Both the position numbers and the translations under genes were made by a program. The notes under the pieces were generated by a model, which was not told the origin of the DNA, ran no database searches, and was given only the letters and a program-made list of their open reading frames with translations. A DNA stretch of 64,000 nt from Terriglobales bacterium (lineage in GTDB: Bacteria; Acidobacteriota; Terriglobia; Terriglobales; Acidobacteriaceae). This document shows, piece by piece, positions 793 to 50,100 of this stretch (position 1 is the first letter of the stretch; each line of letters starts with the position of its first letter). The stretch lies in assembly GCA_035651995.1 (NCBI GenBank), contig DASRER010000039.1:1-64000 (forward strand). Reading direction: 5' to 3'.

Positions 793-1269
793 TCAGCCGC
801 CCAGGCCGCAGTTCTTCGGCTGGGTAAACTTGCGCATGCGGATCTCGGTGCCGCCGTTGCGGTACTCCACGTGGTCCATCAGCTGGTTGATGAGGAACAC
901 CCCGCGTCCATTGCGCTCGTAGAGCTGCCGGCCGTAAAGCGGGCTCGGCAGCCGCGCGGGATCGAAGCCCTCGCCCGGATCGCGCACAATCACCAGCAGG
1001 CCATGCTCATCGTCGCACGCCACGCAGCATTGCACCTGCTTGCTGGCGTCGCCCCGCGCGCCGTGCACCACGGCGTTTGCCAGGGCTTCCCGCAGCGCCA
1101 GCTCCACGTCCTGCTCCTGTCCGCAGGCGCAGTTCACCGCCGCCACGACTTTCATCACTGCATCGACAACCTTGTTGAGCCCGCCCGCGTCGGCAGGAAA
1201 TGACAGGCTGGCGCGCAGCCTGGTGCGGTCGGAGTCGAAGTCGCAGTGCAGCAGCCCGGGACTGGACAT
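793..1269 (-). CDS. RsbW-like anti-sigma factor / serine kinase (HATPase)
   Basis: A 158-residue GHKL-type ATPase domain standing alone. The N box is in ELALREALANAVVHGA (the E and N residues that hold Mg-ATP), the G1 box is DPGEGFDP, and NGRGVFLINQLMD is the G2 box and ATP lid. Isolated domains of this type are anti-sigma factors or serine kinases of partner-switching modules (RsbW/SpoIIAB family). The response regulator gene ends 30 bp upstream on the same strand, suggesting a two-gene operon. No anti-anti-sigma (STAS) or sigma gene is present nearby, so its partner must be encoded elsewhere. Confidence 0.85.
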   Translation of the reverse strand: MSSPGLLHCDFDSDRTRLRASLSFPADAGGLNKVVDAVMKVVAAVNCACGQEQDVELALREALANAVVHGARGDASKQVQCCVACDDEHGLLVIVRDPGEGFDPARLPSPLYGRQLYERNGRGVFLINQLMDHVEYRNGGTEIRMRKFTQPKNCGLGG

Positions 1270-1299
1270 GTCTCGATCCGGAGAAATTCTACTCTCCCG

Positions 1300-1674
1300 T
1301 CAAGCCGTATTCCCTTGCGCCCATCCTGGCGCCTCGCGCAGCAGCCGTTCCACCACTTCCACCAGCTCGCCGGCGCGGCTGCCCTTGCTGAGGAATTCGT
1401 CCACGAACTCCAACCCCTGGGGTCGCTCCGGATACCCGGAGAGCACCAGGATCGGCGCAGCCGGCCGCGCCTGGCGGATTCGGGCCAGGTAATCGGCGCC
1501 CTCGACGCCGCGCAGCAGATCAGACACCACCAGGTCAACTGCTTGGCTGGCCACCACCCCCAGCGCCTCTTCACCGGTCCCGACCGCGATCACTTCGTGA
1601 CCGGCGCGGCGGAGCACGATCGAATGCAGCTCGAGTATGTCGCGCTCGTCGTCAATGCACAGGATGCGGGCCAT
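1300..1674 (-). CDS. Single-domain response regulator (CheY-like receiver)
   Basis: A 124-residue receiver domain with no output domain. The acidic pair is in ILCIDDERD, the phospho-acceptor Asp is in DLVVSDLL (about residue 52), the switch residue is the Ser of LVLSGYPE, and the conserved Lys is in FLSKG. It therefore signals by protein-protein contact. It lies directly upstream of the RsbW-like ATPase gene on the same strand, so it may feed into the same partner-switching circuit. No histidine kinase is encoded nearby. Confidence 0.9.
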   Translation of the reverse strand: MARILCIDDERDILELHSIVLRRAGHEVIAVGTGEEALGVVASQAVDLVVSDLLRGVEGADYLARIRQARPAAPILVLSGYPERPQGLEFVDEFLSKGSRAGELVEVVERLLREAPGWAQGNTA

Positions 1675-1827: not shown

Positions 1828-1856
1828 TTCCCACGCGGATTGGGCCTCAGTAGAAT
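1828..1856 (+). promoter_or_regulatory. Candidate promoter of structured RNA copy A
   Basis: TAGAAT at 1851-1856 is a good -10 hexamer; TTCCCA at 1828-1833 lies 17 bp upstream as a weak -35. A TTGACA at 1813 is too far away for standard spacing. The -10 ends 7 bp before the 5' strand of the RNA closing stem, so transcription would begin almost exactly at the stem, as in copy B. Confidence 0.5.
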
Positions 1857-1863
1857 CTGCCCT

Positions 1864-1997
1864 GCCGAACAGCCACATCGGTTTAGCCGACACTCGCCTG
1901 CCTTACGGATGGATGCGCCGGGTCGAATCTCAAGTCCTAGCGTTCCGCAGGCGGTGGATTTGGGCTCACTCTGCTCCGGTGGCTGTTCGGCTTTATC
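1864..1997 (+). ncRNA. Structured RNA, copy A (paralog of 43376-43505)
   Basis: GCCGAACAGCCAC (1864-1876) pairs perfectly with GTGGCTGTTCGGC (1979-1991), closing a rod-like fold about 128 nt long followed by TTTATCT. Inside, AGCC pairs with GGCT, and CGCCTGC pairs with GCAGGCG. The core shares long blocks with the locus at 43376-43505: TTTAGCC, ACGGATGGA, AGGCGGTGGA and CTCTGCTCC occur in the same order. The closing stem differs in sequence between copies but stays paired, which supports selection on RNA structure. It lies in the gap between two divergent genes. I cannot match it to RNase P, tmRNA, SRP RNA or a riboswitch class that I know; the elongated shape is only loosely reminiscent of 6S RNA. 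Confidence 0.68.
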
Positions 1998-2299: not shown

Positions 2300-2797
2300 A
2301 TGGCACAGCGCCATCCTGGCCGTCCCCAACCTGCCGCGGGAAAGTTCGACCCAGACCAGATACGTCTGCTCCTGGAGCACTTGATCGATACCTGCCGCGA
2401 CGGAGAGCAGGGATACCTTGACGCCGCCGACCGGGTCGAAGATCCCGAGTTGCGCGGCTTCTTCGCCGAACAGGCGCGGGAGCGCGGCCGCTTCGCCGTC
2501 GAGTTGCGGGGTGAGCTCGAGCGCCTGCTCGGAAAGTGGGAGTCCACGCGCGAAGGCAGCGTGGGAGGCATGCTGCGCCGCGCCTGGATCGACGTGAAGA
2601 GCGCCCTCGGCGGTGGCGACCTCGCCATCCTCGAATCAGTCGAAGCCGGCGAAGACGCCGCGCGCGACGCCTATCAGAAAGCCCTTAGTCAGCTCTTGCC
2701 GCCCGATCTGCTCGGCCGGCTGCGCACCCAGGCCCAGAGCGTCTATGCAGCCCACGACCACGTGCGTATGCTGCGGAACCGCCGCAGGGCGGCCTGA
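2300..2797 (+). CDS. PA2169-family (DUF2383) four-helix-bundle protein
   Basis: A 165-residue, fully helical, ferritin-like protein. LLEHLIDTCRDGEQGYLDAA at residues 23-42 is the first helix, ELRGFFAEQARERGRFAVEL the second, and AILESVEAGEDAARDAYQKA the fourth; this spacing matches the PA2169/DUF2383 family. Members are small stress-associated bundles of unsettled biochemical role. The ATG is preceded by GGGAGGGAAAACC, an excellent ribosome binding site. It stands alone between the RNA locus and the convergent gene ending at 2927. Confidence 0.82.
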   Translation: MAQRHPGRPQPAAGKFDPDQIRLLLEHLIDTCRDGEQGYLDAADRVEDPELRGFFAEQARERGRFAVELRGELERLLGKWESTREGSVGGMLRRAWIDVKSALGGGDLAILESVEAGEDAARDAYQKALSQLLPPDLLGRLRTQAQSVYAAHDHVRMLRNRRRAA

Positions 2798-10869: not shown

Positions 10870-11151
10870 GTGAAGGACCAGTTGGAAGCGTTGGTTACGC
10901 AGATGTACCAGAGCGGGATCCTCTACTCGGAGGCGGTGCGCGAGTTCAAAAAGCGCTTCCTGCTGACCGTTCTGGCCCAGAACCACGGCAACCAGTCCAA
11001 GGCCGCCCGCGAGCTGGGCATGCACCGCAACACGCTCAGCCGCACCATCACCGAACTCAAGCTCGACGTGCACGCCCTGCGCGGCGGCGCGCGCCGCCCG
11101 CCCCGCGGCGCCCGTCCCCAGGTCATCGAGCGAAAGGCCGCCCGCGGGTAA
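10870..11151 (+). CDS. Fis-type helix-turn-helix regulator
   Basis: A short DNA-binding protein (93 residues from GTG at 10870). The HTH is NQSKAARELGMHRNTLSRTI, the same helix-turn-helix as the C-terminus of Fis and of NtrC-type activators. The C-terminal tail is Arg/Ala/Pro-rich and basic. I choose GTG at 10870 because AAGGAGA lies 6 bp upstream; an ATG at 10813 overlapping the cvpA stop would add 19 unconserved residues. Third gene of the purC operon. Targets unknown. Confidence 0.82.
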   Translation: MKDQLEALVTQMYQSGILYSEAVREFKKRFLLTVLAQNHGNQSKAARELGMHRNTLSRTITELKLDVHALRGGARRPPRGARPQVIERKAARG

Positions 11152-11154
11152 CCT

Positions 11155-11179
11155 GTAGCAACGTTGCTTGCAGCGTCTC
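11155..11179. repeat. GAGACGTTGC-type palindromic repeat
   Basis: AGCAACGTTGC followed by TTGCAGCGTCTC, immediately after the Fis-like stop codon. It matches GAGATGTTGC-TT-GCAACGTCTC at 60338-60359. Confidence 0.5.
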
Positions 11180-11340
11180 CTGCCTGGAAGGGCGCGGCTT
11201 CAGGACGCGCCAGTCGGCCCCGCCGCCGATTCGGCATTGGCCGCCGACGTATTCTCCGCCAGCGTTCCTTCCTCCGCTGCCAACGGGCAATACCTGCGGT
11301 CCGGAACTATCCGCTGGCCACGATCCACTCCGTAAAACAA

Positions 11341-11371
11341 AAAGCCCATCCCGCGAAGCGGGACGGGCTTT
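11341..11371. terminator. Bidirectional intrinsic terminator
   Basis: AAAGCCC-AT-CCCGC pairs with GCGGG-AC-GGGCTTT around a GAA loop. It lies between the convergent Fis-like operon and the TPR gene and has A/T tracts on both sides, so it can serve both strands. Confidence 0.85.
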
Positions 11372-11387
11372 GCATTCCGCCAGAGGT

Positions 11388-12710
11388 CTACCGCTTCTTC
11401 GGGGGCGTCCGCCGGGTCGTGCCGGTGTTGCGCTTCGGCGCCGCCGGCTTCAGTGCGGCCGCCACGGCCTGCGCCGTCTTGCCCACGAACACGCCCTTGT
11501 CCATGTGCATCATGAACGGGTTCGGATCGTAGCTGGTCGGCGTGCCCTGGAACTGGATCATGGTGCCGTCCGCCGGCACCGCCTTGGCCGGGATCGGCTC
11601 AACCATGGTCAGCTCGATGTCGGCCTTGTTCGCCTCAATGTCCTCCGCGCTGCCGGAAATAGTGAGCTTCGCCGGCGAACCGCTCAGCAGCTTGGCCTCG
11701 AGCTGGATCGGTTTGTTCTCGATCTGGCTCCACAGCTGCTGCGCCGCCTGCTGATTGCCCGACGTCAGAATGAACTCGATCTCGTCAAACGTCATCTGGT
11801 TGACGGGCTTGCTCTGGATCATCTTCGCCGCCTGCTCGGGCGGGGTCGGCGCCGGTGCGACGGTGAATCCGGCCGGCGGATTGGGCGACGCCTTCGCCTG
11901 CGCCAGCAACTCGGGCCAGCCATCTTCTCCGCCGTGATAGCGGATGTACTTCGAGCGTCCGTACTGCGTCAGCTGCGTCTGGGCGGGCGTTCCGGCAGGC
12001 GCCAGATTGGCCGCCACCGCGGCGTAGTACAGGCCCAGCGGGTTCGGCGGCTTCTGTTCGAGATACGCCACCGCCAGCGGATAGATGTTCCGCAGGTCCG
12101 GTGGCGCGCCCTGCACGGCCGCCTGCAGGTGCTGCGCCGCGCTGGCGTAATCCTTCGACTGGAGCGCCGCAAATCCGGCGCCGCCTTCAAAAATCGTGCG
12201 CAGCTGCGACTTCAGCTTGTCCACGTCGGCGGGCTGCATGCCCTCCGGATTCGGCATCGATTGCAGCGCCTGCAGGCCGCGCGAGCAGGTCTGCTGCGCG
12301 TTGGCCACGTTCTGCTGCTGGTTCTGCCCCTGCTCCGCGTTGGCGCGGCTCAGGTAGCACTGCAGCGCGAGGGCCCGGACGTTGTTCGGATTGGCCGCCA
12401 GCACGCGCTGCGCTGCCTCCATCGTCTTCGCCTGGTTGCCGGTGGCCTGGTAGGCGCCCATCAGCAGCTCGAGCGCGTCTTCCTTCATCACGCTGTTCGG
12501 ATAAGCCTGCAGGAAGCCTTCCAGCGCCGCTGCTTTGGCCGTCGCGTCCGGCGTATTAAGGGCATTGACGTAGGCGTTGTACTCCGCCGGGTCCTTGATT
12601 TCTTTCTTCTGCTGCGCCGGCGCACCCTGCGCCGGCGCCGCCTGCTGATCGGCGCTCTGGGCAATGGCGCCCACCGCGAACAACAGCATCACCGCGACTA
12701 ACTTCTTCAT
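11388..12710 (-). CDS. Secreted TPR-repeat protein
   Basis: A 440-residue exported protein. ATG at 12710 follows AAGGAG; residues 1-18 (MKKLVAVMLLFAVGAIAQ) are a signal peptide. A Gln/Ala-rich linker precedes helical TPR-like repeats from about 45 to 260 (for example AAALEGFLQAYPNSVMKEDA and AKTMEAAQRVLAANPNNVRA). Residues about 300-420 form a different, strand-rich domain (LEAKLLSGSPAKLTISGSAE). The tail is basic (TRRTPPKKR). Likely periplasmic; specific role unknown. Monocistronic, with a terminator just after the stop. Confidence 0.8.
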   Translation of the reverse strand: MKKLVAVMLLFAVGAIAQSADQQAAPAQGAPAQQKKEIKDPAEYNAYVNALNTPDATAKAAALEGFLQAYPNSVMKEDALELLMGAYQATGNQAKTMEAAQRVLAANPNNVRALALQCYLSRANAEQGQNQQQNVANAQQTCSRGLQALQSMPNPEGMQPADVDKLKSQLRTIFEGGAGFAALQSKDYASAAQHLQAAVQGAPPDLRNIYPLAVAYLEQKPPNPLGLYYAAVAANLAPAGTPAQTQLTQYGRSKYIRYHGGEDGWPELLAQAKASPNPPAGFTVAPAPTPPEQAAKMIQSKPVNQMTFDEIEFILTSGNQQAAQQLWSQIENKPIQLEAKLLSGSPAKLTISGSAEDIEANKADIELTMVEPIPAKAVPADGTMIQFQGTPTSYDPNPFMMHMDKGVFVGKTAQAVAAALKPAAPKRNTGTTRRTPPKKR

Positions 12711-12988
12711 TCCTGCGCTCCTTGGAACCTCGGGAAGTGAGGAGACAATGATCCTGAACGCCATCACACGTACGTCACCACGCGCCACACTTCTTCGCAG
12801 CGCTCGCTTCCAATCCCTCGACCAGGACCGGGACCGGTCACAAAAGCTGCGATTATACATTGCACTGCTCTTTAGGCAAGCTGCGCCTGTGGTCCGCCTT
12901 CCCTTTGCTATCTTGGATGCGCGTTGCAGCCTTGCTGGATGTTTTGGCATCCAAAAAGCGCCCCGCCAGCGGCGCCCGGAGCCTTGGG

Positions 12989-13714
12989 ATGAACGATGGG
13001 ACACCGCAACTACGCGATCAGGTCGCCGTCGTGACCGGCGGCGGCCGCGGCATCGGCGCCGCCATCTCTCGCCGTCTCGCCTCCCTTGGCATGAAGGTGG
13101 TGGTGTGCGGCAGGACGCGCGCCCGCCTCGACCAGACCGCCGGCGCCATCCGCGAAGCGGGCGGTCAGGCCGAAGCTGCCGTCTGCGACGTGGGCCGGCT
13201 CGCCGACGTCGAAGCCCTCGCCCGCCACGTGCGGCAAACCCACGGTCGCATTGACGTGCTGGTGAACAACGCCGGCGTGGGCGTTTTCAGCGCCCCGCTG
13301 CACCTGCTCTCGCCCGAAGACTGGGAGCGCGTGATGGGCACCAACCTGCGCGGCGTGTACCACACCATCCGCGCCTTCGCGCCGATGATGATCGCCGCGA
13401 AAAAAGGACAGATCATCAACATCTCCTCCGGCGCCGGACGCAATCCCCTGCCCAACGGCGCCGCTTATGCCGCCTCGAAATGGGGACTGAACGGCTTGAC
13501 GTTTTCCGTCGCCGAAGAACTGCGCCAATACAACATTCGCGTCGCCGTCGTCGCGCCCGGCTCGGTCAACACCGAACTCAGCCCGCACCCCGGCAAAGAC
13601 CCGAGCAAAATGCTCCAGCCCGACGACATCGCCGGCATCGTCCAGATGATGGTCACCGCCTCGCCGCAATCGTTCATTCGCGACGTCTTTGTCACCCCGG
13701 CGCAGAGACCATGA
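12989..13714 (+). CDS. Short-chain dehydrogenase/reductase
   Basis: A 241-residue classical SDR. The NAD(P)-binding motif TGGGRGIG is at residues 16-23, CGRT after the second strand suggests NADP preference, NNAGVGVFS is the structural motif, and ISS with YAASK supplies the catalytic Ser, Tyr and Lys. The ending (VAPGSVNTELSPHPGK) is typical of 3-oxoacyl-ACP-reductase-like members. Substrate not readable. ATG at 12989 follows GGAGCC; an upstream extension to 12860 is rejected because it adds non-homologous sequence. Stands alone. Confidence 0.9.
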   Translation: MNDGTPQLRDQVAVVTGGGRGIGAAISRRLASLGMKVVVCGRTRARLDQTAGAIREAGGQAEAAVCDVGRLADVEALARHVRQTHGRIDVLVNNAGVGVFSAPLHLLSPEDWERVMGTNLRGVYHTIRAFAPMMIAAKKGQIINISSGAGRNPLPNGAAYAASKWGLNGLTFSVAEELRQYNIRVAVVAPGSVNTELSPHPGKDPSKMLQPDDIAGIVQMMVTASPQSFIRDVFVTPAQRP

Positions 13715-19142: not shown

Positions 19143-19189
19143 CGCCACGAACGCCCGGGTGCTGAGGTGCCGCCCCACGCAATTTGGGA

Positions 19190-19275
19190 GTCGCGGAGCG
19201 ACGCCACAGTCTTAGCCCCGCACGTGAGTGCGGGGTGTCGAGCGTTTCCTTGCGCAAGTCCCGGAGGGACGGCAC
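19190..19275. repeat. REP-like element of three hairpins
   Basis: GTCGC-GGA-GCGAC (19191-19203), CCCCGCAC-GTGA-GTGCGGGG (about 19215-19234) and GTCCC-GGA-GGGAC (19258-19270). The first and third are the same unit, each followed by G(C/G)CACA, and differ by a compensated base pair. This mosaic layout resembles REP/BIME elements mobilised by RAYT transposases in other bacteria; no RAYT gene is in the window. Confidence 0.6.
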
Positions 19276-40405: not shown

Positions 40406-41551
40406 ATGGCGGCGGCCCCTCCTATCCTCCGGCGCGGTCGTGAACCCGCGGCCCTTCTTCTGCTCGTGCTTGGAGTTGCGCTCTGCTTTATCGCGGTCAG
40501 CTTTCTTACCCGGCAATATAAGGAGCGGCGCGATTTTCTGGCACGTTCGTGGTATGCCCGGGGAGAGCAGGCGCTGGCCGCCGGCGATTCTGCGCGCGCC
40601 ATCGCCGATCTCCGCAACGCGCTCGCTTACGATCGCGACAACAGCGATTACTATCTCCTGCTCGGCGAGGCCCTGGAAAGGGCGGGACAAGGCGCCGAGT
40701 CGCGCTCCTACCTGCTCGGCCTGCTCGAGGCCGATCCCGCCAGCGGGCGCGTGAATCTGGATTTGGCGCGCATCGCTGCCGGCGAAGGCGCCATCGAGCA
40801 GGCGCGCCGCTACTATCACAACGCGATCTACGGCTTCTGGCCGGAAAACGCCCCCGAGCAACGCCGCCGGTTACGCTTTGAACTGGCCCGGCTCCTGCTT
40901 CGCCACAAGCTGCGGAATGAGGCCGACTCTGAACTCGTCGCCCTTCTGGAGACCATGCCCAGGGGCTCGCCCGCTGACCTCCAGGCCGGCGAGCTGTTGC
41001 TGGAGGCCGGCGACTACAGCCGCGCCTACGAGGTATTCACCGCCAGCCTGCGCAGCGACAAACGCAACATTGTGGCGCTGGCCGGGGCCGGTGAGGCAGC
41101 GTTTCAGCAGGGTGATTACCGTTCCGCGCGATCTTACCTGGCGCGCGCCGTGGAACTTGGTCCCGTCAACACGCGCGCGGCCGAACTGCTGGCCGCCGCC
41201 GACGAGATTGCGCGCGTGAATCCGCTGGCGCCGCTGATTACCAGCGCGGAGCGCGTGCGGCGTGTGCGCCAAGCTGTAAAGACCGCCTCGGCCCGCATCG
41301 CCGACTGTATCAGCTCCACACCCCGCGCCGGCGACGCCCAAAGCGCCTCCGCGCTGGTTTCGCTCGCCGCGCAGCTGGCGGGCGCTGAAAAACAGGCCGC
41401 TCGGCTGCATGACAACCCCGAGGCGATTGCGGCGGTATTGAGCACCGTGTTTGCTGCCGAGGCCGCCGCGGAACGGAACTGCGGCCCGGCTACCGGCGCC
41501 GACCTGGCCCTGCTGCGTATCGGTCGCTCCGGCGAGGCGCGCGTTCCATGA
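40406..41551 (+). CDS. Membrane-anchored TPR protein
   Basis: A 381-residue protein with one N-terminal membrane helix (residues 15-33, AALLLLVLGVALCFIAVSFL) and then TPR repeats: ARGEQALAAGDSARAIADLR, YYLLLGEALERAGQGAESRS, and later LAGAGEAAFQQGDYRSARSY. The C-terminal 100 residues are helical with two Cys. It likely assembles partners in the periplasm. Its stop overlaps the ATG of the ClC gene by 4 bp (ATGA), so the two are translationally coupled. Confidence 0.83.
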   Translation: MAAAPPILRRGREPAALLLLVLGVALCFIAVSFLTRQYKERRDFLARSWYARGEQALAAGDSARAIADLRNALAYDRDNSDYYLLLGEALERAGQGAESRSYLLGLLEADPASGRVNLDLARIAAGEGAIEQARRYYHNAIYGFWPENAPEQRRRLRFELARLLLRHKLRNEADSELVALLETMPRGSPADLQAGELLLEAGDYSRAYEVFTASLRSDKRNIVALAGAGEAAFQQGDYRSARSYLARAVELGPVNTRAAELLAAADEIARVNPLAPLITSAERVRRVRQAVKTASARIADCISSTPRAGDAQSASALVSLAAQLAGAEKQAARLHDNPEAIAAVLSTVFAAEAAAERNCGPATGADLALLRIGRSGEARVP

Positions 41552-43287
41552 GCGCGCGCGCCGCTGCCGCCGGCCAGGACGACGCCGTCCTGCGCCAGGC
41601 GCCACGCCCTCTTCTCCGCGAAGAACAATACTTCCTGCTGCTGGCGATTGTGATCGGCGTGTACTCCGGCCTGGCCGTGGTCTGCTTCCGTCTCGCCATT
41701 GAATGGACGCGCCTGTGGATGCTCGGCCCGGCTCTCACCGCCTCGCCATTGCGCACCCTGGCGGCCCCGGCCGCGGCCGGATTGCTCGTCGCGCTTCTGG
41801 TGGTGCGCCTCTTCCCTCGCGCTCGCGGCAGCGGCGTCAATCAGACCAAGTCCGCCGTCTACATCTACGACGGCTCCATTCCCTTTCGCACCGTCGTCGG
41901 GAAGTTCATCACCGCGGCGCTTGCCATCGGCAGCGGACACTCCCTCGGTCCGGAAGATCCCTCTCTGCAAGTGGGCGCCGGTCTCGCCTCGGCCATCGGG
42001 CGCCGGCTGCACCTCTCGCGCGAGCGAGTGCGGCTCATCGCGCCGCTGGGCGCCGCCGCCGGTCTCGCCGCCGCCTTCAACTCGCCGATCGCCGCCGTCC
42101 TGTTTGTGATCGAGGAAGTCATCGGACGCTGGAGCGCCGGCGTGCTCGGCGCCGTCGTGCTCTCCGCCGTTTCCGGGACGGTTGTCGCGCGCTGGTTCCT
42201 CGGCTCCGAGCCCATGTTTCGCGTGCCCGCTTTCGAGCTGCGCAATCCCGCCGAACTGCTCGCCTACGCCGCGCTCGGCGTGGTGGGCGGGCTGGCGTCA
42301 GTCGTGTTCCTCAAGCTTGTGCTCGGCCTGCGTCCGCGCCTCAAGGCCCTTCCGCGCTGGACGCAATACCTGCAGCCCGCGATTGCCGGGCTGATCGTGG
42401 GCGCCCTGGGGCTGTTTGCGCCGCAGGTGATGGGCGCCGGCTACGAGGCGATGGACCAGGCCATGCACGGCCAGTACAGCTGGCAGCTGCTCGGTGGACT
42501 GGCGGGGCTGAAGATCGCCGCCACCGCCGCCTCTTTCGTCAGCGGCACACCCGGCGGCCTGTTTGCGCCCACCCTCTTCATCGGCGCCATGCTCGGCGCC
42601 GCCGTCAACGGCGTGTCGCAACAGTTGGCGCCCCACCTCACCGGGCCCATCGGGGCCTACGCATTGGTCGGCATGGGCACCGCCTTTGCCGGGATTCTGC
42701 GCGCGCCCATGACTTCCGTCTTCATGGTCCTCGAGGTCGGCGGCAACTACGGCATCATTCTGCCGGTGATGATCTCCAACACCGTCGCGTATCTCATCTC
42801 GCGCTCGCTGCAGCGCACGCCCCTGTTCGACGAGCTTTCGCGCCAGGACGGCATTGACCTGCCTTCGATGGAAGAGCTGCGCGAAGAACGCACACTGCGC
42901 GTGGAAGACGCGATGCAGCCTCCGCCTTCGCCGGTCCTCGACGCCGGCGCCACCGTGGACGACGCCCTGAAGCAGGTCGCGGGCAGTTCCGGCGGATTTT
43001 TCCTCGTGAACGGGGCCGGCGCGTGGCGGATCGTTCGCCGTCCCGAGCTGGAGCAACTCGGCGCCTCGGGCGCGGCCATGCACAAGCTCCACACCGTCGC
43101 AGGCGACGTGCTGCCGGTCGTGCATCCCGACCATTCGCTGGAGCACGCCCTGCGAATGATGAAAAGCGGCCAACTGCTTCCGGTCGTCCATCGCGCCAGC
43201 GTCGCGCAGTTGCTCGGAACAGTTTCCGCCGACGACATTCTCCGCGCCTACCACGAAGCGGGACGCGAGATCGGGATCGAAGACTGA
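41548..43287 (+). CDS. ClC-type chloride channel/transporter with CBS domains
   Basis: A 579-residue ClC protein: membrane part to about 430, then paired CBS domains (about 450-575). Anion-path motifs are altered: GSGVN at 94-98 where GSGIP is usual, and GPEDP at 134-138 where GREGP is usual; the gating glutamate is kept as E136. GTPGGLFAPTLFIGAMLG is the normal GxFxP region. The CBS pair (VEDAMQPPPSPVLDAGATVD and GDVLPVVHPDHSLEHALRMM) may sense nucleotides. Anion specificity cannot be given. Coupled to the TPR gene; the RNA B locus follows. Confidence 0.92.
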   Translation: MSARAAAAGQDDAVLRQAPRPLLREEQYFLLLAIVIGVYSGLAVVCFRLAIEWTRLWMLGPALTASPLRTLAAPAAAGLLVALLVVRLFPRARGSGVNQTKSAVYIYDGSIPFRTVVGKFITAALAIGSGHSLGPEDPSLQVGAGLASAIGRRLHLSRERVRLIAPLGAAAGLAAAFNSPIAAVLFVIEEVIGRWSAGVLGAVVLSAVSGTVVARWFLGSEPMFRVPAFELRNPAELLAYAALGVVGGLASVVFLKLVLGLRPRLKALPRWTQYLQPAIAGLIVGALGLFAPQVMGAGYEAMDQAMHGQYSWQLLGGLAGLKIAATAASFVSGTPGGLFAPTLFIGAMLGAAVNGVSQQLAPHLTGPIGAYALVGMGTAFAGILRAPMTSVFMVLEVGGNYGIILPVMISNTVAYLISRSLQRTPLFDELSRQDGIDLPSMEELREERTLRVEDAMQPPPSPVLDAGATVDDALKQVAGSSGGFFLVNGAGAWRIVRRPELEQLGASGAAMHKLHTVAGDVLPVVHPDHSLEHALRMMKSGQLLPVVHRASVAQLLGTVSADDILRAYHEAGREIGIED

Positions 43288-43361: not shown

Positions 43362-43367
43362 TACAAT
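43362..43367 (+). promoter_or_regulatory. -10 element of structured RNA copy B
   Basis: TACAAT at 43362-43367, ending 8 bp before the closing stem. No strong -35 is seen at 17 bp. The ClC and peptidase genes converge on this gap, so the RNA needs its own promoter. Confidence 0.5.
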
Positions 43368-43375
43368 GCCCTCCG

Positions 43376-43505
43376 ACCGGGCGGCCCGACATTTAGCCAC
43401 CACCGTTGCTTCTACCACGGATGGAAGCCCGCTGGATTGAGTTCCTGCGAGTCCGTAGGCGGTGGAATACGGCTCGCTCTGCTCCTGGGGCTGCCCGGTC
43501 TTTCA
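43376..43505 (+). ncRNA. Structured RNA, copy B (paralog of 1864-1997)
   Basis: ACCGGGCGGCCC (43376-43387) pairs with GGGCTGCCCGGT (43488-43499), including one G-U. The stem is unrelated in sequence to that of copy A but occupies the same place. The enclosed core shares TTTAGCC, ACGGATGGA, AGGCGGTGGA, CTCTGCTCC with copy A in the same order. Internal pairs include AGCC/GGCT and ACGGA/TCCGT. No open frame is conserved between copies. The type is unknown; see findings. Confidence 0.72.
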
Positions 43506-43817
43506 GGATTCGCAAGAATCCGCAGGAGCGTGGCGAGACGTGCTGGGCTGGTCTGTTCGAAACTGGGTCCTGGGGAAGGCTGTTCGCGGGCCGCACACCG
43601 CGGTCCTACCTAACCCGGTGACAGGGAAGGGCTCAGGTACATTCGACAGACAGTTTAGGTATTAACCCCAGTTTGTGCAGGGGCAGTCCAGGTACATAGT
43701 CACAAACAGTGCGGGCGGGGCCACGGCTGCACTAGCGTTTTGGGGAAAACACTGATGTAGTTGTTGGAACCCCGCCCACACCTTTTAGCGTTGACTCCTA
43801 GTCCTTCCGTAGCACCC
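43506..43817 (+). ncRNA. Structured non-coding continuation of the RNA B locus
   Basis: GGATTC-GCAA-GAATCC at 43506-43521 is a GNRA-tetraloop hairpin. AGTTTGTG pairs with CACAAAC near 43670-43710. GCGGGCGGGG (about 43711-43720) pairs with CCCCGCCC (about 43771-43778), enclosing CTGCA/TGTAG and GTTTT-GGGG-AAAAC. With no gene in the gap and a terminator at the end, this is probably the 3' part of a long (about 470-nt) RNA or a second RNA. Copy A has no obvious equivalent. Confidence 0.5.
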
Positions 43818-43845
43818 ACCGCCGCGAGGCGGTTTTTCTTTTTCT
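43818..43845 (+). terminator. Strong intrinsic terminator of the RNA B locus
   Basis: ACCGCC-GCGA-GGCGGT followed by TTTTCTTTTTC: a 6-bp stem with GNRA loop and long T tract, pointing in the plus direction. Confidence 0.9.
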
Positions 43846-43885: not shown

Positions 43886-45916
43886 TTACTTCACCGCCGC
43901 GAAGTGCGCGTCGTACCAGGCAAGCGAGCGCGTAATCCAGTCCACCAAGTGCTTCGGTTCGCGCAAGCCGTGGCCTTCGCGCGGATAACGCGCGAACACC
44001 GTCTCCACGCCAACATCCTTGAGCGCGATGTAGAACTGCTCGCTCTCCGCGATCGGCACGTCGGGATCGTTCTCGCCGTGGACCAGCAGCGTGGGAGTTT
44101 TCGCCTTGGCCACGTGCTTGAGCGGCGAGCGCTCCCAGAGCACGTCCATCAACTTGCCCTGGTGCGGACGCGCGCCCCACTCCATTTCCTCGTACTGGTT
44201 GTAATAGGTCATGTAGTTGTAGCTGATGAAATTGGTGATCGCCGCCGTAGGAATCGCCGCTTTGAACATGCTGGTCTGCGTGATCAGCCACGCCGTGAGC
44301 TGTCCGCCATAGCTCACGCCCTCGATGCCGAGCCGGTCCGGATCGAGCCACCGATAGCGCCGCAGCGCCGCGCCCACGCCGTAGAGCACGTCCATGCCTT
44401 CGTCCCCGTCCTGGTCCCGGAAGACGGCGTCGGCGAACTCCTGTCCGTAGCCGGTGGAACCGCGAAAGTTCACCATCAGCGTGGCGTATCCGTGCGCGGC
44501 GTACACCTGGTTCTTGAAATTGAATGCCGGGCCCTGCTGTCCGTGCGGCCCGCCGTGAATCACGACGATGAGCGGATACTTGCCTTCCGGCTTCCAGTTC
44601 AGCGGACGCGTAAGGAACGCTTCCACGTTCCACTTGTTGTCGTTGCTGATGAACGTGAACGACTCAACCGGCGCGAGCTGCTTTCCGCCGAGGACGCCGG
44701 CGTTGAGGTTCATCAGCCGGCGGGGCTCCGCTGCTCCGGACTTGAGGAACAACTCCGTCGTGTCGCTGCGGCCCGCGAAGGTGTAGGCGATCGCGTTGTC
44801 CCTGCGTGCCGCAAACGTGCCCACGAATCCGGCGTCGCCAACAACCATCTCCGGCTTTCCGCCCGCTACCGGCAGCCGATACAGGTGATTGCTCCCGCGC
44901 TCCTGCACGGTGAACAGCAGCGCCGCACCGTCACCGGTCCACGCCGGCGCACCCTGGCGATTGTTGATCGCAGCGCCGATCTCACGACGACCGGTGCCGT
45001 CAGCGTTCATCACCCAGACGTGCGTATCCTCCATGTTGGTTTCGAGGTCGGTGAGGCCGCGCTTGGTGGCGCGGTACGCGATCATCTTGCCGTCGGGCGA
45101 CCAGCGCGGTTGGAATTCGCATCCCTCGGTTGCCGTGAGCCGGCGCACCGCGCCCGTCGCCGCGCTGACCGTGAACAGGTCGTTGTTGAAAATGCGGTCC
45201 GGATCGGGCTCGCGGTTGGAAACGAACACGATCTCATCCCCGCTTGGCGCCCAGTCAATCGAGTGCTCGTAGTAGTTGCCGGTGGTGAGCTGGCGCGGCG
45301 TCCCGCCGGCGGCGTCAATCACGAACACGTGCGTGCGCTTGTTGTCGTTGAAGTGCGAGTTCCCTTCCCAGAAGTCTGGCTTGTACAGATACCGCGTGAT
45401 GATCATTGGATCGCCGTTCGCGTCTTTCGTCTCCGGACCAGGCACGGCAGAGACGAACGCAATGCGCTGGCTGTCGGGCGACCACGTAATCGTCTTCCCG
45501 GCGTTGGGATTTGGGCTGTTCGTGCCGTCGGTCTCGGCAAGAAAGCGCGGCGCCGAGCCGTCCGCGCCCGCAACAAACAATCCGCCCTTGCCGCCAATCC
45601 TGCCATCGAAGGCCAGCCAGCGCGAATCGGGCGACCAGGTCGGCTCCGAGCCGTGATCGTCGGCGCCGCCCACTCGCACGGACTTGCCGTCAGCCACCGT
45701 CATGACCCACAGCGTTGCGTACGGACGCCCCGTGCCGTCGTTGTTGTCCACGACGTAGGCCAGCCGCGTGCCATCAGGCGAGAACGCGACGTCGGCCACG
45801 CTGCGCAGGCGCAACAGGTCAGAAGCCTGCAAACCAGCGGGAAATGACGCAACCGTCTGCGCAACCGCGCAACAGGTCAGAAACAGAACTAGCAACGCTC
45901 GCGACAATGAACTCAT
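43886..45916 (-). CDS. Secreted S9-family serine peptidase (acylaminoacyl-peptidase-like)
   Basis: A 676-residue exported peptidase. ATG at 45916 follows GGGGGAG; MSSLSRALLVLFLTCCAVAQ is a signal peptide. Residues about 30-410 form a WD40-like/TolB beta-propeller (VAFSPDGTRLAYVVDNND, PTWSPDSRWLAFDG). The alpha/beta-hydrolase domain carries the nucleophile Ser in GVSYGGQL (about residue 535), the Asp in GENDPDVPI (about 616) and the His in REGHGL (about 648). It should release N-terminal residues from peptides outside the cytoplasm. First of a run of secreted proteins on this strand. Confidence 0.92.
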   Translation of the reverse strand: MSSLSRALLVLFLTCCAVAQTVASFPAGLQASDLLRLRSVADVAFSPDGTRLAYVVDNNDGTGRPYATLWVMTVADGKSVRVGGADDHGSEPTWSPDSRWLAFDGRIGGKGGLFVAGADGSAPRFLAETDGTNSPNPNAGKTITWSPDSQRIAFVSAVPGPETKDANGDPMIITRYLYKPDFWEGNSHFNDNKRTHVFVIDAAGGTPRQLTTGNYYEHSIDWAPSGDEIVFVSNREPDPDRIFNNDLFTVSAATGAVRRLTATEGCEFQPRWSPDGKMIAYRATKRGLTDLETNMEDTHVWVMNADGTGRREIGAAINNRQGAPAWTGDGAALLFTVQERGSNHLYRLPVAGGKPEMVVGDAGFVGTFAARRDNAIAYTFAGRSDTTELFLKSGAAEPRRLMNLNAGVLGGKQLAPVESFTFISNDNKWNVEAFLTRPLNWKPEGKYPLIVVIHGGPHGQQGPAFNFKNQVYAAHGYATLMVNFRGSTGYGQEFADAVFRDQDGDEGMDVLYGVGAALRRYRWLDPDRLGIEGVSYGGQLTAWLITQTSMFKAAIPTAAITNFISYNYMTYYNQYEEMEWGARPHQGKLMDVLWERSPLKHVAKAKTPTLLVHGENDPDVPIAESEQFYIALKDVGVETVFARYPREGHGLREPKHLVDWITRSLAWYDAHFAAVK

Positions 45917-45937
45917 GAACTCCCCCGCGTTTTTGGT

Positions 45938-45965
45938 GAGAACCGAGGACCGCGAACTGACAACT
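45938..45965. repeat. Heptamer array after the BNR-protein stop
   Basis: GAGAACC GAGGACC and GCGAACT GACAACT. It overlaps the stop codon at 45964. Reverse complement of the TCAGTTC class. Confidence 0.7.
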
Positions 45966-47019
45966 ACTTCAACGACGGCCGCTTCCCTCCCGGCGCGCTG
46001 CCTGCCACGCGAACGATCGTTCCTTGCGGCCCGACCGCGTATCCCGCGTCGGGCGCTGCGAACGCAACCGCGTTGAAGTTGCCCTCGGCCAGGTGCTTCC
46101 ACGTGCGTCCGCCGTCAATGGAATAGTCGGAACCGGTCGTTCCGACCGCGATCATCGTGGGCCACTGCGTGTTCGGGACCACCGCCACCGCCGACCGGTA
46201 TCCGGCCGGCTGCTCCGACGCCAGCTTCCACGTCTTGCCTCCGTCGCTCGTCCAGGCCGCGTTTGCGTTGGCGACGGTGGGACTCTTGTAGTCGCCGCCG
46301 ACGATCACACCCCGGTCGGTGTCGGCGAATGCAACCGAGAAAATTCCCGCGCCCTCTTTCCCCGCGGCAAACGGCGTGCTCACCGCCGTCCACGTCTTGC
46401 CGGCGTCGCTGGTGCGAAACACGCGCCCCACCGCCCCGCCGCCGGTCACGAACCAGGCGTACTTTTTCTCCGCCACGGCCACGCACGTTCCGCTCGCCGC
46501 AAAGGCGCCTTCGCCGTCGAGCGCCGCGGGCATGCCGCGCTCCGGCACGGCGGTCCACATCGCGCCCCCGTCAGACGTGAGCAGCACCGTGAAGCGTCCG
46601 CCCACCGGATCGCCGACAACGATGCCGTGCTGCGCGTCCCAGAACGCCATGCAGTCGAGAAAGCCCTTGGGATCGTGATTCGCGTATTGCGCGGTCCAAT
46701 GCGCGCCGCCATCGGTGGTCTTGAAGATGCGTGACGCCTCGCCCGGCCCGGCCGCCAGCAGGTACGCCGTGCTCGCATCGAAGGCCTGCACGTCGCGAAA
46801 GTCGAGCGTCTCGGCGCCGGCCACCTGCGCCGGCGTCCACGTCTCGCCGCCGTCGGTCGTCCGCAGATACGTGCCCCGCGTGCCGCTCGCCCACGCAATT
46901 TTGCCGTCCACAACCGAAATCCCGCGCAGGCTGCTGGTCGTTCCGCTGTTCTGCGGCGCCCACTGGGCAAAGCACTGCGTTGCGAGCAGCAGGATTGCGA
47001 TCGGCACACTCCTCTTCAT
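45964..47019 (-). CDS. Secreted YCF48/BNR-type beta-propeller protein
   Basis: A 351-residue exported protein. ATG at 47019; MKRSVPIAILLLATQCFAQ is a signal peptide. Several Asp-box repeats follow: LRTTDGGETWTPA, FKTTDGGAHWTAQ, LLTSDGGAMWTAV, FRTSDAGKTWTAV, AWTSDGGKTWKLA, YSIDGGRTWKHL. This pattern matches the YCF48/BNR-like propeller group. No catalytic residues of sialidases are apparent, so it is likely a binding or assembly protein. It sits between an S9 peptidase and a VPS10-like propeller on the same strand. Confidence 0.87.
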   Translation of the reverse strand: MKRSVPIAILLLATQCFAQWAPQNSGTTSSLRGISVVDGKIAWASGTRGTYLRTTDGGETWTPAQVAGAETLDFRDVQAFDASTAYLLAAGPGEASRIFKTTDGGAHWTAQYANHDPKGFLDCMAFWDAQHGIVVGDPVGGRFTVLLTSDGGAMWTAVPERGMPAALDGEGAFAASGTCVAVAEKKYAWFVTGGGAVGRVFRTSDAGKTWTAVSTPFAAGKEGAGIFSVAFADTDRGVIVGGDYKSPTVANANAAWTSDGGKTWKLASEQPAGYRSAVAVVPNTQWPTMIAVGTTGSDYSIDGGRTWKHLAEGNFNAVAFAAPDAGYAVGPQGTIVRVAGSAPGGKRPSLK

Positions 47020-47119: not shown

Positions 47120-50100
47120 CTACTTCGACCCTCCCGCCTGCGCATCGGCGCCCTTCAGTTCGATGGGATTGCCGGCGAACAGCGTGCTCGCTCCCTTGTC
47201 GAGCGCCAGCTTGTTGAAGTCGTTCACGTCGCCCTTGAGCAGCGCGTTGAACTCGGCCAGGTGCGACTCCAGCTGCTTGCGCAGCGTGGCCATCTCTTCC
47301 TGTTCCAGTTCAGTCGGCGCCACGCCGTAGCGGCCGCTGATGGAGAACATCAGTCCCTGCAGCCGTTGCTGGAAGCGGTCCAGGTAATGCAGCGTATCGC
47401 TGCCGCCCTGTTGCAGCTCGGTGTTGAAGATCTTCTCCTCGAACCCGCGCAGCTTGCGGTCGAGCGCCCGCGCCTGCTGCATCACCGGCTGATACGACGC
47501 CTGCGCCACGCCGCCCTCCTCGTTGCCCGCGCTGAGGAAGCGCTGCACCGCGAGCAGCTGTGTGTGCATGCTCTCCAGCCGGTTCAGCGCCGTGTTCAGG
47601 GCCGTCACCTCGTCGCGCAACTCCAGCGCCGCCTTGGTCTGCGCCGCGAACACCTCCATCGGGATGTTGAAGCGCGGATCAGGACGCGTTTCCGCCACCG
47701 TGGTTTGCGAATCGTTGCCCACGCTCACCGTGATCTTGAAGCTGCCCGGAACCACCGGCGGCCCCGAGCGCGGGAAGAATTCGGCTTCGAACTCGCTTTC
47801 CTGCTGCTGCTGGAAGTCCAGACGCGTGGCGCCGTCGTAGGTCATGTCCCAGCTCACGCGATTGAACCCGGCATTCGCGGTGCCGTAGAACGTGCGGACC
47901 TTCTGGCCGGCCGCGTCGGTGACCGTGATTTTCACCGGCGTCTGCCGCCGGCGGCGCATCTCCGGCGTGGTCTCCAGCGCCGACTTCAACCAGTACTGCA
48001 CCACCACGCCCGGCGGCGGATTCGGCGCCGGCGGCGTGGCCGATGAGTTGAACCCGCCGCGGTTCCAGTTCTGCCAGCGGCGCGCCGGCAGCGTGGTGAA
48101 CACGTGCAGGTTCGTGTTGGCCGCGATCTTGTCCTGTTCTTCCAGCGGCACGATGTTGTCGAGGACGAACAACCCCCGCCCGTGCGTGGCCACGATCAGG
48201 TCGTGACGGTCCTTGTGGAACTTCACGTCATACACGGGAACGTTCGGGAAGTTGCCCTTCAGCGGCTTCCAGTCGTCACCATCGTTCATGGAAAAGTACA
48301 GCCCGGTGTCGGTGCCCAGCACCAGGAAGCCCTTGCGGTTGGGGTTCTCGCGCACAACCCGCGCCGGCTCGTCGTCCGGCAGGCCCTTGATGATCGCCGT
48401 CCAAGTCTTGCCGCCATCGTGCGTGCGGTAGACGTATGGCTTGTTGTTGTCGAGCTGGTGCGCGTCGTAGGCCACGTACGCCGACTCGGGCGAGAACGGA
48501 GACACGTCGATCTGCTGAATGCGCGCCCACTCCGGCGCGCCCTTCGGCGTCACGTTCGTCCAGTGCGCGCCGCCGTCTTTGGTCATCTGCACCAGGCCGT
48601 CGTCGGTGCCCACCCAGATCACGTTCGCGTCGGTCGGCGCGATACTGAACGAGAGGATGGTGCCATAGGTCTCCGCGCCGCTCAGGTCGAGCAGGATCTG
48701 CCCGCCGCTGGAGGCCTGCTTCGTCTTGTCGTTGCGAGTCAGGTCGGGACTGATCGGCTGCCAGTGCGCGCCCGCGTCGGTGGACTTGAACAGCACGTTC
48801 GCGCCCAGGTAAACGGTGTTGGCGTCCTTGCGGTCAACGCCGATGGGCGACGTCCAGTTGAACCGATACTTTAAGTCTGCCGGCGCCATCGAACCAACCC
48901 CATGCAGGTACGGACGCACGCTGATCGAGCGCCCGTTCGTCTTGTCGAAGCGCGAAATGAACCCGTTCTGCGAGTCGGCATAGATGATGTTGCTCTTGCC
49001 CGGCGCCGGGACAACGTATTCCCCGTCGCCGCCCGTCGCCGTCCACCACAGCGAGCCGGGAATGCCGCCGCGGCTCAGGCTGTTCGACGGGCCGCACCAG
49101 CCGTTGTTGTCCTGCAAGCCGCCGCACAGCAGGTACGGCTCGTCGTCGTCGTGCGCCACCATGTAGAACTGCTCGATCGGCAAATTGTCGAGGAAGCGCC
49201 ACGTCTTGCCGCCGTCGCCGGTCACGTACACTCCGCCGTCGTTGCCTTCGATCATCCGCTCCGGTTGCGTCGGATCGATCCATAGCGAGTGATGGTCGGG
49301 ATGCACGCCGCGCCCGATGTTGCGCGCGTTCTTGCCGCCGTCGTCCGACTGCAGAATGTCGAACGACAGGAAGTACAGCCGGTCTTCGCGATCGGGCGCC
49401 ACGTACACCTGGCTGAAGTACCACGGCCGCGCGGCCAGCACGTGCCGGTCGCTGACCTCGGTCCAGTGGTCGCCGTTGTCCTTCGACTCCCACAGGCGTC
49501 CTTTCTTGGCGCCACCCAGCGCGTAGATGTGCGACGAGTTCGACTTCGCAATCGCCAGGCCGATGCGCGACATCACTTTCGGCAGGCCCTCGGTCAGGCG
49601 CGTCCACGTCACGCCGCCGTCAGTCGAGCGCCACACGCCGCTGTTCGGGCCGCCGTCGTCGAACATCCACGGACGCCTCGTCGCCTGCCACGTCGAGGCG
49701 AACAGCACCAGCGGATTGTTCGGGTCCATCACCAGCGCAGCCACGCCGGTGCTGTCGTCCACGAACAACGTTTTCGTCCACGTCTTGCCGCCGTCGGTGG
49801 TGCGGAACACGCCGCGGTCCTTGTTCGGACCCCACGCGTGTCCCTGCACGCCGACCAGCACAATGTTGGGATCGGCTGGATGAATCACGATGCTGGAAAT
49901 CTGTCCCGCATCGCCCAGGCCCATGAAGCGCCACGAGGCGCCCGCGTCGGGCGAGAAGTACACGCCCTTCCCCGTGACCACGTCGTTGCGGATGTTGGCC
50001 TCGCCCGTGCCCACCCAGATCAGGTTGGGATTCGATGGCGCCAGCGCGATCGCGCCGATCGATGGCGGATACTTTTCGAAGATCGGCTTCCACGACAGCC

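Follow-up and report, generated by a model that had tools for sequence, protein, structure and literature searches.

The analysed stretch of DNA, hereafter the window, comprises 64,000 nucleotides and contains two similar intergenic elements, copies A and B, the parts of which are listed in Table 1. Copy A is located between a response-regulator receiver gene (1300-1674, minus strand) and a DUF2383 gene (2300-2797, plus strand), and copy B between a ClC channel/CBS gene (41548-43287, plus strand) and an S9 prolyl oligopeptidase gene (43886-46102, minus strand). The minus-strand genes next to copy A encode a HATPase_c_2 protein (anti-sigma-type kinase) and a stand-alone receiver domain (window 793-1674). 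Seven mechanically called ORFs overlap or flank the copies: five overlap A or B, one enters B from the ClC side, and one (43904-45847, plus strand) lies opposite the peptidase gene; none of them, the last included, matched a Pfam family. No tRNA-like genes were found in the window.

Table 1. Features of copies A and B in the window (all predicted from the DNA sequence)
Feature	Position	Strand	Remark
RNA copy A	1864-1991	+	predicted 5' end through end of closing stem; length 128 nt
RNA copy B	43375-43500	+	length 126 nt
TTCCCA, weak -35, copy A	1828	+	17-nt spacer
TAGAAT, -10-like hexamer, copy A	1851-1856	+	
TACAAT, -10-like hexamer, copy B	43362-43367	+	
Closing stem P1, 5' arm, copy A	1864-1876	+	
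Closing stem P1, 3' arm, copy A	1979-1991	+	
Closing stem P1, 5' arm, copy B	43375-43387	+	
Closing stem P1, 3' arm, copy B	43488-43500	+	
Conserved block TTTAGCC, copy A	1882-1888	+	
Conserved block TTTAGCC, copy B	43392-43398	+	
Conserved block ACGGATGGA, copy A	1905-1913	+	
Conserved block ACGGATGGA, copy B	43417-43425	+	
Conserved block AGGCGGTGGA, copy A	1949-1958	+	
Conserved block AGGCGGTGGA, copy B	43457-43466	+	
Invariant CTCTGCTCC, proposed seed, copy A	1969-1977	+	unpaired in consensus fold
Invariant CTCTGCTCC, proposed seed, copy B	43477-43485	+	
Intrinsic-terminator-like site 3' of B	43818-43843	+	possible end of a long B transcript form

Both elements are followed by further potential secondary structure. 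Directly after copy A lies an element with a 16-bp closing stem and 84 nt inside (1994-2109), which is present in a single copy in the genome according to BLAST. After copy B, a strong hairpin with a long G-C-rich inverted repeat (window 43700-43790) precedes the terminator-like site, a type of site that was found once against 0.6 expected in shuffles. Elsewhere, the window's longest inverted repeat of its span class, 17 bp with G-U pairs permitted, is located at 48774-48886.

Two coding-related roles were considered and rejected. A cis-regulatory leader or riboswitch would have to apply to both copies: copy A does precede the plus-strand DUF2383 gene, which lies about 300 nt further on, but copy B is located downstream of the plus-strand ClC gene and faces the minus-strand peptidase gene and is therefore unlikely to be the leader of a coding gene. 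A conserved reading frame was dismissed because a shared ATG precedes AGGCGGTGGA by 40 nt in copy A but by 36 nt in copy B, a difference that breaks any common frame.

The relationship between the two copies is evident from several comparisons. Their local alignment scores 54, against a mean of 15.4 (s.d. 2.3) and a maximum of 31 in 2,000 dinucleotide-preserving shuffles, and when B was slid over the window in 130-nt tiles, the score was 53 at A and did not exceed 29 wherever a tile overlapped neither copy. A covariance model built from B alone recovers A both in the window (56.4 bits, E 7e-9) and at genome scale (E 4e-7). The blocks TTTAGCC, ACGGATGGA, AGGCGGTGGA and GGCTC-N-CTCTGCTCC follow each other in the same order in both copies, and CTCTGCTCC is identical at all nine positions. 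The initial annotation had claimed identical spacing as well as identical order, but the spacing is only roughly alike: 16 nt in A and 18 nt in B lie between TTTAGCC and ACGGATGGA, the step from ACGGATGGA to AGGCGGTGGA measures 44 nt in A and 40 nt in B, and only the last two blocks, AGGCGGTGGA and CTCTGCTCC, are equally spaced (20 nt). As judged from these alignments, A and B are homologous intergenic elements, and they very probably represent a pair of RNA genes.

The position of the putative promoters points in the same direction. Between the end of each -10-like hexamer and the start of pairing in the corresponding stem lie 7 nt (7 and 8 nt if the aligned register is used), which confirms the earlier remark that the stems begin 7-8 nt after a -10 hexamer. 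Each hexamer is also the only sequence in its intergenic region, on either strand, that matches TATAAT in at least five of six positions; hexamers of this class with A2 and T6 occupy 26 of the 127,990 hexamer positions of the window (0.02%). For copy B no -35 element is recognisable, and a scan found no sigma-70-type hexamer pair. With two homologous copies, each with a predicted promoter of its own, A and B conform in this respect to sibling sRNAs; transcription of both is a prediction from their promoter-like sequences. Sequence, promoter position and intergenic location together lend good support to the proposal of two paralogous, separately transcribed RNAs, with transcription still at the level of prediction.

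In both copies the predicted 5' end can pair with the 3' end over 13 bp, perfectly in A and with one G-U pair in B. This agrees with the paired closing stems of the initial annotation, but not with its statement that they differ at most positions: among the 12 aligned pairs, 7 are unchanged, 4 are changed on both sides (double compensatory) and 1 is changed to G-U. A second count gave the same result plus one outer pair that is formed only by B. Stems of at least 12 bp at such a span occur 18 times in the window and 5-15 times in five local shuffles, and because a stem of such length alone is not rare, the case for A and B is made by the shared core together with the promoter position. As a predicted structure, the closing stem is well supported.

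The fold of the inner part is less well supported. On the plus strand, the folding energies of both copies are better than all of 200 shuffles (z-scores of -4.4 for A and -3.4 for B, computed with a few flanking bases added), and the corresponding minus-strand values are -3.6 and -2.4. The alifold consensus proposes a rod inside the closing stem, with a large internal loop and an imperfect apical rod, at an energy of -40.7 kcal/mol for A, whose minimum is -64.5, and of -47.2 for B, whose minimum is -62.8. Counted across the complete consensus structure, pairing holds in 98.5% of the cells, compared with 34-44% when the partners are slid by 1-3 columns, a count that is equalled by 13 of 500 letter shuffles and leans towards the favourable side since the alignment was fitted to a structure derived from the same two sequences. 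Only the closing stem reaches high base-pair probabilities in A as well as in B, and the single-sequence minimum-energy folds of A and B disagree on the arrangement of the loops. The structural selection suggested earlier is hence supported by compensatory changes for the closing stem; this support does not extend to the inner part, where pairs hardly vary and energies favour no common fold.

In a search with Rfam 15, a single match in the window reaches its gathering score, and it lies on neither copy: Acido-Lenti-1 (RF01687) at 19189-19235, minus strand (44.5 bits, cut-off 37), which fits the acidobacterial source assumed in the initial annotation. With E values up to 10, a single match touches a copy, namely a minus-strand match of a human lncRNA model to the final 19 nt of A (10.8 bits, cut-off 40); in the intergenic stretches, two microRNA families, an enterococcal RNA and the human lncRNA appear at E 0.5-8, all far below their cut-offs. 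At both thresholds, the search bears out the earlier impression that no known family fits. The consensus fold does have a 6S-like outline, with single-sequence folds that disagree inside, but the likeness to 6S RNA fails as family membership: RF00013 matches neither copy at the gathering score or at E values up to 10. The genome encodes a separate 6S RNA of 192 nt (76 bits to RF00013, cut-off 46.4; G000:C4:112600-112791, minus strand; positions 1501-1692 of locus L001), which in turn is not matched by the model built from A and B.

The distribution of the two elements appears to be narrow. In their own genome, only A and B were found at E values up to 10 (82 of 96 first-look candidates scored). 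The A+B model yielded no other credible match in 348 genomes of the family or in 396 genomes of the phylum, and four weak hits without the ordered blocks among 41 relatives (L072-L075, E 0.55 to 7.6). In 399 genomes of the class, the B-only model recovered copy A as a held-out positive control and, under the same strict settings, gave one other hit without the core (L143 in genome G940, 23 bits, E 0.84). Each of these four sets includes the own genome and the draws overlap; in the runs over more than 40 genomes (the 348, 396 and 399 sets), only eight to nine candidates per genome were scored in full for the genomes listed, which limits the sensitivity. BLAST of copy A against 150 family genomes, the own one included, produced weak hits in three others, again without ordered blocks, and a 24-base pattern with three mismatches had one other match among 300 family genomes (G181), which lacks the upstream ACGGATGGA block.

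Wider searches, in collections that may omit records of the own or very near genomes, gave a similar picture. An 18-base pattern found 41 stretches in a contig collection of 84,980 species, and no exact ACGGATGGA precedes any of them within 100 nt. Two of these stretches (L042 and L057) contain all blocks at up to two mismatches each, and the model fails at both pattern sites. Of two patterns run on viral contigs, one had no match and the other matched 19 stretches, all of which lack the remaining blocks. When the A+B model was run on 53 loci, that is, all 41 from the contig collection, 10 of the 19 viral ones, L008 and the 6S locus L001, it gave 12 hits with a best E of 0.46; two of them overlap pattern sites (L047 and L052) at about 11 bits. 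Nothing related was found in phages, and the sole plasmid match is a 41-bp stretch of 85% identity in two plasmid records of Paracoccus aminovorans, in one of which it lies inside a LysR-type regulator gene. The ClC and DUF2383 neighbourhoods of relatives, searched at 26 of 35 loci (L077-L096, L107-L112), do not carry the RNA and gave two hits of 8-9 bits (E 7 and 9) to short hairpins only. In the literature listings and excerpts consulted, no description of these RNAs was found.

Because no second genome of the same genus is among the 300 family genomes listed, this absence means that A and B are not seen beyond the genus, not that they are unique. The initial annotation had named a lack of homologues outside the window as evidence against its own reading, and none were found; we interpret the absence as lineage restriction and not as disproof, since each copy corroborates the other and A is recovered by the model built from B alone. 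On these comparisons of sequence, A and B are an orphan sibling pair and constitute a predicted new RNA family of a known kind.

We propose that a single ancestral gene gave rise to A and B as sibling genes for small RNAs. Each RNA would start at its own -10 element and be closed by pairing of its 5' end with a sequence some 115 nt further downstream; compensatory changes would let this closing stem diverge, and the inner blocks would stay conserved. Next to the stem, the internal loop would expose CUCUGCUCC, an invariant segment rich in pyrimidines, which could pair with GGAGCAGAG at ribosome-binding sites and so keep a small set of putative secreted surface proteins from being translated. 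Taken as a whole, from sibling origin to a loop seed that blocks surface-protein translation, this explanation is tentative and somewhat more apt to fail than to hold; the seed mechanism considered separately is a shade more doubtful. That A and B may dampen the production of surface proteins is only a lead.

The segment CTCTGCTCC is the strongest short signal in the two RNAs, being identical in both copies, on which its conservation as a seed rests, and unpaired in the consensus fold. Its complement GGAGCAGAG contains a Shine-Dalgarno core and occurs 41 times in the genome, the two RNAs included, compared with 17 occurrences of the pattern in reverse. All 39 other sites were inspected (30 judged on frames of at least 60 codons, 9 on any frame), and in 13 cases a start codon follows after 2-13 nt, mostly one inside a frame that is open far upstream. 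Two look like gene starts, a choice among the 13 that involved judgement. In the first candidate target, on the minus strand of contig C19 of the genome (G000) at about 11.2 kb (L155, 9425-11227), GGAGCAGAG lies 6 nt before the ATG, and in the second, on the plus strand of contig C28 at about 136.9 kb (L156, about 10890-13589), it lies 9 nt before the ATG, in a frame that is open for 72 codons upstream of this codon.

The proteins encoded at the two candidate sites are 35% identical over 410 amino acids (BLASTP E 2e-54, with ORFs cut at the locus ends), and both have signal-like N-termini. Counted from the chosen ATGs, the residues C27, V29, Q30, V32 and T33 are shared at identical positions, which supports the choice of start codons. 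The C19 protein matched no Pfam or NCBIfam family, and the C28 protein contains choice-of-anchor D and Z domains and an ASH domain. No third member of this surface-protein family was found in the 191 kb (5.2%) of the own genome that were examined, and the family is probably not very large.

The link between the RNAs and these leaders is open to simpler readings. In the two candidate leaders, GGAG is located 11 and 14 nt before the ATG, which is long for a Shine-Dalgarno site. The loop-leader duplexes have calculated energies of -21.5 to -31.9 kcal/mol for both leaders, values that add little because the sites were chosen for complementarity. A rough estimate gives one or two matches at ribosome-binding sites from GGAG bias alone, and the two cases among 39 may perhaps reflect no more than the usual GGAG bias before genes. 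The only striking point is that the two target genes are homologous, an observation made post hoc, and a leader handed down from their common ancestor may be explanation enough. Sequences near the RNAs might provide partners as well, in transcripts of sufficient length: GAGCAGAG (2073-2080, inside the 1994-2109 stem) could pair with the loop of A, and CAGGAGC at 43523, after B, could pair with GCTCCTG of B.

Several other functions would account for parts of these observations. The two RNAs could be scaffolds of a hitherto undescribed RNA-protein particle, in which the inner blocks would form a protein-binding core and CUCUGCUCC would be no seed. The conservation of four inner blocks, ACGGATGGA and AGGCGGTGGA included, instead of a single seed is in line with this idea, as are the plus-strand folding energies below those of all 200 shuffles and the pairing of the ends into a closed molecule, which is a property of many stable RNAs. 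We nevertheless consider a scaffold rather unlikely, given that the nine flanking ORFs scanned reveal no protein family common to both sides and that a lineage restriction as strong as that of A and B is, to our knowledge, unusual for such RNAs. Improbable, too, is a role as extra, shortened 6S-like decoys that would hold RNA polymerase via the internal loop between the closing stem and an inner helix. Some bacteria have two 6S RNAs, and the outline is alike, with G-C-rich edges of the closing stem, one large internal loop and an imperfect apical rod; still, neither copy matches the Rfam 6S model even at E 10, the full 6S RNA elsewhere in the genome is not recognised by the A+B model, and lengths of 126-128 nt are short compared with the 192 nt of that RNA.

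A still smaller probability is assigned to A and B being remnants of a mobile or repetitive DNA element and not RNA genes. Strong hairpins and the 16-bp-stem element (1994-2109) that abuts copy A would suit such an origin, but only two copies were found in the genome at E 10 among the candidates scored, the abutting element is itself single-copy by BLAST, and phages and plasmids contribute only the short Paracoccus aminovorans match; moreover, equal distances to the -10 hexamers and compensated stems would not be expected of remnants. The blocks have finally been considered as CsrA/RsmA-binding GGA motifs, which would make A and B Csr sponges of the CsrB/RsmZ type. Their ACGGAUG resembles the CsrA consensus, but each copy has few GGA motifs, and CsrA (PF02599) was not found in the genome, which is 99.35% complete, by a search whose control matches 3 of 14 known genomes. 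This candidate was rejected as extremely improbable.

The reading that we prefer remains that of sibling small RNA genes. A broader proposal is speculative and unlikely: A and B would exemplify a new lineage-restricted class of closed-rod bacterial RNAs whose 5' and 3' ends are zipped together by a freely drifting stem, and function would reside not in a terminator-type sRNA body but in the fixed inner core, which would combine a dedicated protein partner with an internal-loop seed and regulate a family of extracellular proteins.

According to the excerpted text of a 2022 review, four distinct annotated sRNAs are on record for Acidobacteria (PMC9029176), the likely source of the window. For a phylum in which hardly any sRNAs have been described, these two siblings lend themselves to direct tests through their conserved putative seed and the two candidate targets named above. 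The orphan pair of one genome has limited wider reach; it illustrates how paralogues within a single genome can reveal lineage-specific RNA genes that lack homologues in databases.

Among known RNAs, 6S RNA (RF00013) is described, in the parts of the sources used here, by an outline of closing stem, central bubble flanked by G-C pairs and apical stem (PMC1242208, PMC4064990). The consensus fold of A and B shares the terminal stem, the large internal loop and the rod-like apical part, but both are shorter, lack a model match and coexist with a separate 6S RNA in the same genome. Acido-1 (RF01686) and Acido-Lenti-1 (RF01687), listed as candidate ncRNAs of Acidobacteria in the portion consulted of their description (PMC2864571), are likewise structured RNAs without known function from the same phylum, but neither model matches A or B. 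The cyanobacterial ncRNAs Yfr1 and Yfr2-Yfr4 have a patchy distribution; in the excerpt of the same source that describes them (PMC1242208), Yfr1 has its own mapped start site and Yfr2-Yfr4 form a family of structurally similar RNAs. They differ from A and B in size and hosts, their sequences having been compared by the Rfam scan only. The sibling sRNAs LhrC1-5 of Listeria monocytogenes, as far as the available part of the report goes, use CU-rich single-stranded regions to pair with Shine-Dalgarno regions; there are three such regions, one of them in the terminator loop, and the targets include the mRNA of a cell-wall adhesin (PMC5880928). In contrast, A and B contain a single invariant segment of this kind, and their 5' and 3' ends form a long-range closing stem; here again, sequences were compared by the Rfam scan only. 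Like LhrC, they are predicted to be several homologous sRNAs within one genome, and on the tentative reading above they would act in a similar way.
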